NCBI GenBank assembly: GCA_004294445.1
Contig: REAZ01000010.1
Location: 1-64,000, forward strand
DNA length: 64,000 nucleotides
From: Cytophagales bacterium
GTDB lineage: Bacteria; Bacteroidota; Bacteroidia; Cytophagales; Thermoflexibacteraceae
Direction of reading: 5' to 3'
How positions within the stretch are numbered: the first letter of the stretch is position 1; every line of letters starts with the position of its first letter. Below are positions 7,184-9,604 of this stretch, one piece after another. Under the pieces are notes generated by a model. The model had not been told where the DNA came from, searched no databases, and saw nothing but the letters and a program-made list of their open reading frames with translations. The position numbers and the translations under genes are program-made.

Positions 7184-8716
7184 ATGAATCGTGAACGCTT
7201 TGCTGAAATATTCGACCTTAACCCCAAAGTAAGTTCTTTTGCCAGAGGAATAGATAATTTTATCTATGTGATTATCTTGGTAAGCACGCTCGTAGTTACG
7301 CTGGAAACTATAGTGCCTATTGAGTATATTCCTAATTTGCAGGCATTTGAAACTATTGTTACTATTATTTTTGTTTCCGAACTCCTTTTTAAACTCTCGG
7401 TTATTGATATTCTTTTTGCGAGGCATCAGCATCTGTGGGAACGGGTCTTGCTTGTTGCGTATCTGCTCATAGACATAGCGGCGGTAGTGCCGCCAATTAT
7501 TTTCTTGTTCAACAAAGGCGCGCATCACGATTATTTCCTTACCTTGCGGCTATTGCGAATTTTCAAAGCCTTTCAGCACGACCATTCTATAGAGTTAATT
7601 TTGAGGGCGGTCATCAGAAAAAGAACAGAGCTAATCAAATCTGCCTTAGTAGTAGTAGTAGTTACTATTTTTATGTCCGTTTTGCTTTACGAAGTGGAGA
7701 ATGATTTTGAATTTGGGGGGGCGCAAGCAAGTAAAAGCACCATCAAAGACATTTTTTCAGCACTTACTTGGGCTTTTGCTATTTTCGTAGATGATGCTAC
7801 AGGGCATATAGATGCAGGACTTACCCCTATTACTTCTTTGGGCAAACTGATAGCGGCATTCATAGGGCTGCTCAAAATTGGTATTGTCGTTATCCCTACA
7901 GGCATTATCGCTACGGGTTTTATGGAGGTAATAGAGGAAAACAAGCTAAAAAATAAACATGATATACTCAAGGAGGCTTTCAGAAAAAAATTTAATGATG
8001 TACTGCAAATAGAAGTTTTTGAAAGACCACGTACTATTTTTACACTCAGGGACGCACTTTTCATCAATGAACATCAGATATTCAATATTTTAGAAAACAA
8101 TCAGGGCTTCAGGGTGAGGGCTGTGCAGTCAGATGAGCAGGAAAAGTACGTAGATACTAATCTCATAGAGCATTACGCTTACCAAGAACTTCCGCTTTAT
8201 GGGGCAAAAATAGACAGGGAAAATGGCAAACATCTCATTATTTCGCCCAATAGCAATGCAGATGTAGGTATTGGCTATTTTTCCTACTGCCTGTCAGAGA
8301 TGCTTCAGGCAGACTTGATTTCCAATGAGTTATATCAGAAAAATTCTTTGAGTCTTCGCTATGATTTCGATTTTCTCAATAATGACTTGTATTGGAAAAA
8401 CGAGCATTCAGAAATGAAGAAAAGCCAATTTGCAAAACTACCAATAAAGCAACAAGCTATTTTCAGATTCAAGGAAGATATTTTGAAACTCAAAGAATAT
8501 CAGCACATTCTGATAGTAGAGGCGGCATTGATAGAAAATGATTTCGAAATTGAAAAAATGAATATTAGCACTTGCACTCATCAGCTTATGATGTGGCTTT
8601 GCTCGCATAGCGAAAACGTATTTAGCGTGAAAGTAAAGCAAAAAGTGCTTGAAAATTACAGCTATTTCGATAGCGTGAAAAAACTAAGTGATGAAGTAAA
8701 AGTTTTAATAAAATAG
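7184..8716 (+). CDS. Voltage-sensor-type ion channel protein with atypical pore
   Basis: A 510-residue membrane protein with the layout of a six-helix cation channel (ion_trans superfamily). Hydrophobic helices lie near residues 25-45, 55-72, 86-108, an Arg/Lys-bearing S4 near 118-131 (LTLRLLRIFK), 152-170 and 222-250. The pore loop (about 191-221) starts like a K+ channel with ALTW and ends PITSLGK, but the TVGYG filter is replaced by VDDATGHID and the loop is about four residues longer. A soluble C-terminal region of about 255 residues, which I do not recognise, follows. The next gene begins 42 bases downstream. Ion selectivity cannot be predicted; it could be a non-selective or non-conducting homologue. 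Confidence 0.7.
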   Translation: MNRERFAEIFDLNPKVSSFARGIDNFIYVIILVSTLVVTLETIVPIEYIPNLQAFETIVTIIFVSELLFKLSVIDILFARHQHLWERVLLVAYLLIDIAAVVPPIIFLFNKGAHHDYFLTLRLLRIFKAFQHDHSIELILRAVIRKRTELIKSALVVVVVTIFMSVLLYEVENDFEFGGAQASKSTIKDIFSALTWAFAIFVDDATGHIDAGLTPITSLGKLIAAFIGLLKIGIVVIPTGIIATGFMEVIEENKLKNKHDILKEAFRKKFNDVLQIEVFERPRTIFTLRDALFINEHQIFNILENNQGFRVRAVQSDEQEKYVDTNLIEHYAYQELPLYGAKIDRENGKHLIISPNSNADVGIGYFSYCLSEMLQADLISNELYQKNSLSLRYDFDFLNNDLYWKNEHSEMKKSQFAKLPIKQQAIFRFKEDILKLKEYQHILIVEAALIENDFEIEKMNISTCTHQLMMWLCSHSENVFSVKVKQKVLENYSYFDSVKKLSDEVKVLIK

Positions 8717-8758: not shown

Positions 8759-9604
8759 ATGTTGTTCAAAATAAAGCATATCACCCATTATAAATACTCC
8801 TCAGAGGTGTTTTTAGAACCGCATTTGCTAAGAGTAGCCCCTCGCACAGATGCCTATCAGGTGCTTAAAACATTTGAGTTGGAGATTTTTCCCCTACCAA
8901 CGGTCAAAAATGCTAATATGGGGCTGACCAATCCGCATGACTATATGCTATGGTTTGAGGGAAATACCAAAGAGTTCAAAATTATCGCTACCTCGATGGT
9001 AGAAGTCATGAATGCGAATCCTTTTAGCTTTGTTATTTTTCCATTTACAGCCACTCAACTGCCAATGCGCTATTCTGATACGGTAAATGAGCAGCTTATT
9101 CCCTGCCTGAAGCAAATAACTAAAGATGAAAGAGTATATAAATTAGCGAAAGAGCTTATGCTTGATATTGATTTTCAGACACTTCCGTATGTAGCACATC
9201 TTTCTCGCTATCTGCAAAGAAATTTTAAGATAGAGGAAGTTCGCCCTAATTCCTTGCCCGCAACTCCAGAGCTTACGCTGGACAAAAAAGCAGGAACACA
9301 CCGAGATTTGGCATATTTGCAAATGGCACTTTGCAGAGAAGCGGGCATAGCCGCTCGATACGTAAATGGCTATTATATAGACGATTCCGATAAAAAATAC
9401 TTACATTCGTGGGTAGAGGTTTATTTGCCCGGAGCAGGCTGGAAGGGGTTTGATGGCACTACGGGAATGGCAGTAGGAGATAGACATATTGTGATTACTG
9501 CTGGAGCAAATCCTTCCTTATGTGCCTTAGTAACAGGAACTTTCAGGGGAAATGCGCACTCCGATTTGGAAACTACTATCGAAATTACTGAAATGTTTTC
9601 TTAA
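8759..9604 (+). CDS. Transglutaminase-fold protein lacking the catalytic cysteine
   Basis: The 281 residues resemble the bacterial transglutaminase-like family: an N-terminal beta domain (about 1-80, beginning FKIKHITHYKYSSEV) and a papain-like core (about 125-250). The core usually carries GxC(R/Q)D. Here it reads GTHRDLAYL, so His181 stands where the nucleophilic Cys should be. The other triad members are present: His216 in LHSWVEVY and Asp232 in WKGFDGTTG. A nearby Cys192 lies in the following helix and is not in the nucleophile position. It may be a pseudo-enzyme or binding protein. It has no signal peptide. It sits 42 bases after the channel gene and 39 bases before argF'. Confidence 0.8.
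   Translation: MLFKIKHITHYKYSSEVFLEPHLLRVAPRTDAYQVLKTFELEIFPLPTVKNANMGLTNPHDYMLWFEGNTKEFKIIATSMVEVMNANPFSFVIFPFTATQLPMRYSDTVNEQLIPCLKQITKDERVYKLAKELMLDIDFQTLPYVAHLSRYLQRNFKIEEVRPNSLPATPELTLDKKAGTHRDLAYLQMALCREAGIAARYVNGYYIDDSDKKYLHSWVEVYLPGAGWKGFDGTTGMAVGDRHIVITAGANPSLCALVTGTFRGNAHSDLETTIEITEMFS

Follow-up and report, generated by a model that had tools for sequence, protein, structure and literature searches.

The gene described here lies on the plus strand of the window, by which is meant the whole stretch of 64,000 nucleotides that was analysed. The gene and its parts are as follows.

7184..8716, plus strand: channel-like gene, whole coding sequence including the stop codon, 510 amino acids; ATG start, with Pfam and PDB matches
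7238..7522, plus strand: S1-S3 of a voltage-sensor-like domain, residues ~19-113; by alignment and hydrophobicity
7523..7579, plus strand: S4, residues ~114-132; by alignment
7622..7705, plus strand: S5, residues 147-174; by alignment and hydrophobicity
7751..7786, plus strand: pore helix, residues 190-201, without the canonical W/Y195 and T200; by alignment
7787..7813, plus strand: replaced selectivity filter VDDATGHID, residues 202-210; by alignment and codon counts
7793-7795 and 7811-7813, plus strand: conserved acids of the filter, D204 and D210; by alignment
7847..7942, plus strand: S6, residues 222-253, with PTGIIATGF kept; by alignment
7874-7876, plus strand: Lys231 in place of the S6 hinge glycine; by alignment
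7949..8713, plus strand: C-terminal domain (CTD), residues 256-510; common to channels with a canonical filter and to HTH-like proteins

The Pfam scan places the window protein in the Ion_trans superfamily, with a score against PF00520 of 58.3 bits over residues 23-201 (E 8.6e-16), above the curated cut-off of 25; a scan of the same protein against NCBIfam gave no family above its cut-off. By sequence the best PDB matches (phmmer) are KCNQ3, Kv4 and KCNQ1, with a best E-value of 1.8e-7, and the PDB alignments reach residue ~259, past S6. There are five hydrophobic segments at a scanning length of 19 residues (19-49, 54-80, 83-113, 147-174 and 212-251, the last being two overlapping ones), and S4 is recognised through alignment, which together with the Ion_trans match bears out the six-helix layout given in the first-pass annotation. 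The AlphaFold monomer of the full chain, made from three input sequences only, has a mean pLDDT of 35.8.

Named relatives of the window protein are present in a Cytophagales MAG (79%) and in Thermoflexibacter ruber (72%; Bacteroidota, Cytophagales). The whole-protein search covered 39 genomes, 21 of them with any match. Searches with the CTD or its profile, the window's genome included, gave 23/390 in the order, 4/395 in the phylum and 5/395 in the class, with a further 10/15 in the family of genome G025 and 3/123 in the order of G661. The CTD search sampled genomes evenly across the larger groups of a single phylum, and reach beyond that phylum comes from the whole-protein scan (close relatives only), plasmids and viral contigs. 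The viral contigs gave 40 pattern matches and no relatives, while 28 plasmid records match, none covering 80% of the query, and in the 15 listed the match is confined to residues 48-270.

The CTD is found in 32 distinct places: 29 channels, two proteins that have an HTH-like N-terminus in place of a channel, and one fragment, a 62 amino acid frame with a stop (L063 in G854), which was ignored. Ten of the channels, including that of the window, make up a variant clade (V). Its filter reads VDDATGHID/E in the window, G001 and G002, VNDAIGYQE in G718 and G661, VGDPAGYQE in G025, VGDLAG[YF]xE in G143, G082 and G041, and FEEVSGFGN in G003, where GFG is kept. Another 14 form a canonical group (C) with T[VI]GYGD in 14/14, and five deviate (D): G1099 (GEIGGYGD), G1153 (NDIGGYG), G147 (TGDYGAI), G824 (TTLGGD) and G417 (TGSTPQG). 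The ordinary Kv-like places from the whole-protein search have [TS]-x-GYGD in 22/22. Members of clade V occur in genome families f1, f14 and f67, the last of which has nothing below the phylum in common with the window, and G143 holds one V and one C copy.

That the K+ filter TVGYG is absent from residues 202-210, with VDDATGHID in its place, had been claimed from the window alone and is confirmed by sequence and alignment; the pore-flanking ALTW and PITSLGK are likewise where they were said to be, at residues 193-196 and 215-221. Read directly, the filter region carries neither the TxGYG(D) of Kv-type K+ channels nor the TLESW-type filter of bacterial Nav channels of the NaChBac type. A canonical filter elsewhere in the chain would have overturned the claim, and none was found on looking through the window chain for GYG, GFG, GLG or T-x-G-Y/F. 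The loop is indeed longer, by four residues relative to the canonical one, with two of the extra residues on either side of the GYG position.

Pore and S4 residues were compared in a 50-row alignment, in which 36 rows are canonical (the 14 C channels and the 22 ordinary Kv-like ones). Residue 204 is acidic in 10/10 members of clade V, and in 13/13 of the CTD-channels that carry the two-residue insert (the ten of clade V with G1099, G147 and, by eye, G1153); an acid is present at 210 in 9/10. The conservation proposed as a check on the DD/H/D residues therefore holds for D204 and D210 and not for D203, where clade V has D in three, N in two, G in four and E in one, nor for H208, which is His only within the window's genus and Tyr or Phe in the other V members. 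Gly207 is invariant (10/10), while the second glycine of GYG is lost in 9/10. In the window protein Gly207 is the only residue of the GYG core to be kept, so the usual K+ sites are unlikely there. Position 195, Trp or Tyr in 36/36 canonical rows, is T, V, A or I in nine V members and F in one, and Thr205, present in the same 36/36, becomes A, P, V or L. The S6 hinge Gly231 is present in 36/36 canonical rows and 4/4 D rows, and is replaced in clade V by Lys (four) or Asn (six). Lys231 goes with an acid at 203 in 4/4 and Asn231 with a non-acid in 6/6; as the four carriers of Lys belong to one family, this pairing perhaps reflects a single event.

In the voltage sensor, the six S4 charge positions of the window read ADLRRK (A113, D116, L119, R122, R125, K128), which is not the full row of gating charges of Kv-type K+ channels. 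The Arg/Lys S4 of the first-pass annotation is present in so far as R122, R125 and K128 are there; the charges are only three, and the outer positions are Ala113, Asp116 and Leu119. This is a property of the clade, as the positions read xDLRRK in 10/10 members, with the outer gating charges gone and one position Asp in all ten. The outer three are all basic in 13/14 canonical CTD-channels, the exception being G120, which has -STRRK and yet a canonical filter. The charge-transfer residues F63 and E66 of S2 and D97 of S3 are kept in 10/10 of clade V. With the outer charges gone throughout, and with S6 and the filter codons constrained (see below), the earlier suggestion of a voltage sensor without a pore is disfavoured.

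In two CTD-channels of the D group, G824 and G1153, pore and CTD are present and no voltage sensor was detected at the expected place upstream. With 49 voltage-sensor queries, the best stray match at G824 lay downstream of the gene (E 0.004) and that in G1153 had E 0.058, whereas in three similar control loci the sensor was matched where expected, at E 4e-9 to 6e-15. The frames upstream of both CTD-channels are crowded with stops. The two loci without S1-S4 are L075 5117-6307 (G824), where the filter TTLGGD lacks the tyrosine, and L125 (G1153).

Clade V is monophyletic (100/100) in the channel tree of 49 rows, from which the filter and outer S4 were removed, and again (100/100) in the CTD tree of 30 rows. 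The channel tree joins V to G1099 and G147 (98/91), with the C channels placed among the ordinary Kv-like ones, apart from V; the CTD tree has V beside eight C and two D rows (91/87). As far as these alignments go, the two trees differ on whether channel and CTD have travelled together. G824 was omitted from the channel tree, its voltage sensor not having been found; G1153, found after the 50-row alignment, is absent from both trees and from the residue table; and alignment A3 is without L042, L050, L052 and L053. Both trees are unrooted, and it is from the canonical filter of all 36 C and ordinary rows that we infer a direction of change from canonical to variant. G1099 and G1153, in which the insert is present and GGYG is kept, look like an intermediate step in the filter sequence.

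Constraint on the clade was assessed by Nei-Gojobori counts over six pairs of V members. For the whole gene pN/pS is 0.18-0.32, these ratios being rough because gene-wide pS is 0.7-0.9, near saturation. S6 is among the most constrained parts, at 0.02-0.11 in the six pairs. For filter codons 202-210 the nonsynonymous/synonymous counts are 0/4, 1/1, 1/2, 0/3, 2/8 and 3.5/5.5, with pN below that of the gene in 6/6 pairs and pN/pS below it in 5/6. For the whole P-loop (190-221) pN is also lower than the gene's in 6/6, whereas pN/pS is higher in 4/6 (0.24 vs 0.18, 0.45 vs 0.25, 0.30 vs 0.23, 0.36 vs 0.32), in part because P-loop pS is low in three of those pairs, and lower in the other two (0.06 vs 0.22, 0.14 vs 0.28). 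Mean identity among nine V members is highest, of 13 regions, in S4 with its linker (0.74) and S6 (0.71), and is 0.30 over the last 105 residues; for the filter loop it is 0.50, against 0.81 for the canonical filter in the 14 C channels. The reading frame is intact in 10/10 members, and five of these members are in genomes listed as 99% complete. We read this pattern in the codons and alignments as conservation with a probable change of function, and not as decay.

The C-terminal domain of about 255 residues, unrecognised in the first-pass annotation, remains without a Pfam family or PDB match. No Pfam family was found for the window CTD; the 20 CTDs searched gave ten families of one member each (best E 0.0095), with nothing consistent among them. 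Against NCBIfam the CTDs gave nine families, again one member each (best 0.0034), and the window CTD only PemA, at 0.017. The CTD profile found in the PDB only one de novo protein (E 1.2) and no solved relative. AlphaFold of the CTD alone, made from three input sequences only, has a mean pLDDT of 34.7. There is neither a cyclic-nucleotide-binding domain nor TrkA_N/TrkA_C in the window protein, in the 20 CTDs (Pfam) or among the PDB matches of the CTD profile.

The CTD also occurs without a channel, behind an HTH-like N-terminus that was recognised by eye and not by profile, in L062 (G970) and L053 (G177), with open frames of 401 and 421 amino acids. The coordinates of such genes are L076 5140-6336 and L077 5272-6480. 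Judging from where it occurs, the CTD is apparently a sensor module common to channels and DNA-binding-like proteins. Its presence behind HTH-like domains, and in two CTD-channels without a detected voltage sensor, makes the CTD, and not voltage, look like the constant input. Within the CTD-channel family voltage sensing looks optional and the CTD constant, and we infer that the CTD is a cytosolic sensor that would drive the pore.

Across the ten neighbourhoods of clade V no gene partner kept by the whole clade was seen. Three genes are common to the window and G001 and missing from that place in G002: DciA, one that by eye resembles a guanylyltransferase gene, and one of transglutaminase type. 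The last of these (Transglut_core, Bact_transglu_N; 8759-9604, plus strand) comes after the channel gene, on the same strand, both in the window and in G001 but not in G002. In G718 (L069 3104-7309) and G661 (L070 4192-7760), which belong to one genus, the variant channel has a Band_7/SPFH gene on one side and a Na+/Pi cotransporter gene on the other; Pfam identifies the latter in G661, and in G718 a similar gene is truncated where the contig ends. One gene beyond the Band_7/SPFH gene, further upstream, G718 has a canonical Kv-like channel.

In three deep relatives the CTD gene has, 1.2-3.2 kb away, a P-loop NTPase of the KAP family (PF07693, E 3e-37 to 1.3e-38): L073 9737-11500 (G1099), L074 7361-9484 (G417) and L076 9431-11191 (G970). 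Some KAP match is present in 15 of the 18 CTD genomes tested, with E <1e-36 only in these three and G147, and a next best of 6.5e-7. Related proteins of 101-126 amino acids lie between the KAP and CTD genes in G1099 and G970, with a borderline TerB match in G1099. The KAP/CTD neighbourhood is possibly an unrecognised signalling or defence locus.

Elsewhere the window's genome encodes, as a separate gene, a sodium-channel-type protein of 313 amino acids with a TLESWS filter (L084, G000 contig 34). It also encodes a 348 amino acid protein with an Ion_trans match (L106, contig 52) that by eye has two transmembrane segments, a TrkA/RCK-like tail and a filter-like STTGMNEV, which is not canonical.

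On its sequence the window protein is a channel-like protein with the K+ filter replaced by an acidic loop that is conserved through clade V. Homology to Kv channels, replacement in both filter and S4, conservation of this within one clade and selection on the S6 and filter codons are all to be seen in the alignments and codon counts. By analogy, we would give an even chance to the reading that the protein descends from a Kv-type K+ channel and is a CTD-gated cation channel without selectivity for K+. The gene product would be one subunit of a homotetrameric 6TM cation channel with a Kv-type ancestor, in which two residues, including the conserved acid D204, would have been added where the pore helix leads into the filter. 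The threonines of the filter would have been lost, as would, in 9/10, the second glycine of GYG, and the S6 hinge glycine exchanged for Lys or Asn. With the filter rebuilt and the S6 hinge changed, the most likely outcome is passage of cations without K+ selectivity. Four D204 carboxylates could form an acidic ring just past the pore helix which, with D/E210 at the outer mouth, may favour or bind Na+ or divalents. The earlier idea that the acidic residues might favour divalent cations is a possible one: the acid at 204 is kept in 10/10 of clade V and in the three more distant insert channels. As the outer S4 charges are gone, membrane voltage would contribute little. A ligand or partner would bind the CTD, whose movement would pull S6, helped by the S4-S5 linker, and so open the pore. 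Against cation passage, Lys231 (4/10) would put four lysines near the cavity, which is unfavourable unless each is paired with the acid at 203.

The same losses might instead describe a receptor that does not conduct, its membrane part serving as an anchor, an oligomer frame or a membrane-state sensor for the CTD. The K+ filter, Trp/Tyr 195, the filter threonines and the S6 hinge glycine have all gone, with Lys at the hinge in 4/10, the pN/pS of the whole P-loop exceeds the gene's in 4/6 pairs, and the CTD does occur elsewhere without a channel. This alternative is nevertheless unlikely: the nine filter codons fall below the gene at nonsynonymous sites in 6/6 pairs, S6 is strongly constrained, the acid at 204 is present in 13/13 insert-bearing channels, and the best conserved regions are the S4-S5 linker and S6. 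Decay of the gene, or a sequencing artefact, might be entertained given that the window's genome is incomplete (62%), and is scarcely credible: the frames are intact in 10/10, five in 99%-complete genomes, and overall pN/pS is 0.18-0.32. For clade V it is refuted by orthologues that are both intact and constrained.

If the protein conducts, the acidic ring might have evolved independently in a divalent-selective channel, with the acid right after the pore helix as in Nav/Cav. F201-V-x-D204 can be aligned by eye with M-T-L-E in the TLESWS protein that this genome also encodes, and there is a second acid at 210 in 9/10. The register was picked by eye, however, there is no tryptophan to match that of TLESW, the stretch from filter to S6 is short, and a modified K+ filter better suits the relatives G1099 and G1153, which combine GGYG with the same insert; all this makes the idea quite improbable. 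Continued K+ selectivity, with the loop as an alternative K+ filter using Gly207, would agree with the invariance of that glycine (10/10), the GFG of G003 and the GGYG of two deeper relatives; set against the replacement of Thr205 (36/36 canonical) by A, P, V or L, the loss of Trp/Tyr 195 in 10/10 (Phe in one) and of the second glycine in 9/10, its chance is very slim. In eukaryotes, KvS proteins are silent or modifying subunits of K+ channels, and a variant protein joining a canonical K+ channel in this way would suit G718, which has a canonical Kv-like gene on the same strand, two genes upstream and beyond the Band_7 gene, and G143, which also has a canonical CTD-channel. The idea is very unlikely and is set aside, chiefly on the ground that no further Ion_trans match was found in G082 (99% complete); in addition, G001 has two further Ion_trans matches and G002 one, all of the TLESW/TLEDW type, without GYG.

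The non-K+-selective, CTD-gated channel can be carried further, tentatively and with the balance of probability against it, to a Bacteroidota K+ channel that became a ligand-gated, acidic-ring and possibly Ca2+-permeable cation channel, losing K+ selectivity and voltage sensing together, with an undescribed cytosolic CTD sensor in control, one that HTH-like regulators would use as well and that has KAP-family NTPases for neighbours in deeper relatives. If true, this would be a CNG-like transition made separately in bacteria, with possible living intermediates (GYGD; GE-IGGYGD; EEVSGFGN; GDLAGYVE; DDATGHID). Losing K+ selectivity is generally regarded as difficult for a channel. Clade V departs from the canonical form in filter, voltage sensor and S6 hinge alike, and the changed forms are conserved within it, while other CTD-channels keep a canonical filter. 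The homologues and intermediate-looking forms make the steps from K+ to non-K+ testable by ordinary mutants and chimeras, and the finding also draws attention to a sensor-like domain, common to channels and HTH-like proteins, that none of the family libraries searched contains. Non-canonical filters in K+-channel lineages are already known; what is notable in this case is that filter and gating charges were lost together, that this state is conserved across families, that some forms look intermediate, and that the CTD is an orphan. No description of the variant channel family was found in the open-licence literature searched.

Among known systems, Kv channels (KCNQ/Kv4 and the bacterial Kv-like ones) share with the window protein the 6TM layout, the S2/S3 charge-transfer residues, the inner S4 charges, the S4-S5 linker, the position of the pore helix, P-x-T-x-x-G after the filter and P-T-G in S6. 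Unlike them it has no TxGYG, a filter loop longer by four residues, replaced outer S4 charges, Lys or Asn for the S6 hinge glycine and a different CTD. In CNG-type and RCK channels a cytosolic domain gates a Kv-like pore with weak voltage dependence. The gating proposed here follows that idea, although no cyclic-nucleotide-binding or RCK/TrkA domain was detected in the window protein or the CTDs; Mll3241 is among the PDB matches of the window protein (E 0.013). Bacterial Nav/Cav channels (the NaChBac type; CavMr) have an acid just after the pore helix, as the window protein does in the by-eye alignment. It differs from them in lacking the TLESW motif, in the shorter stretch before S6 and in that its named PDB matches are K+ channels.

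Two further systems concern the filter itself. NirBac1.1 and NirBac1.2 conduct without K+ selectivity, NirBac1.2 does not conduct Ca2+, and their filter loops differ although the proteins are >66% identical elsewhere (PMC4607889). Like the window protein they belong to a K+-channel family and have a filter loop unlike any known filter; odd filters need not, on the NirBac result, pass Ca2+ (PMC4607889). Unlike it, NirBac has the Kir/KirBac architecture, with a Kir cytosolic domain and a 2TM pore, and filters unrelated in sequence, where the window loop is conserved across families; the window protein is Ion_trans with S1-S4, and its Pfam scan shows no Kir domain. NaKTs of Tsukamurella paurometabola has a non-canonical filter, is non-selective and has Ca2+ bound near the pore helix (PMC5052707), where the acidic insert of the window protein lies; its authors found nothing like this filter in any other channel (PMC5052707). 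NaKTs differs in being 2TM, with the filter LPMGNGPLSP and without S1-S4 (PMC5052707). By analogy, NirBac and NaKTs may be taken as precedents, of another architecture, for reading the window protein as a channel without K+ selectivity.
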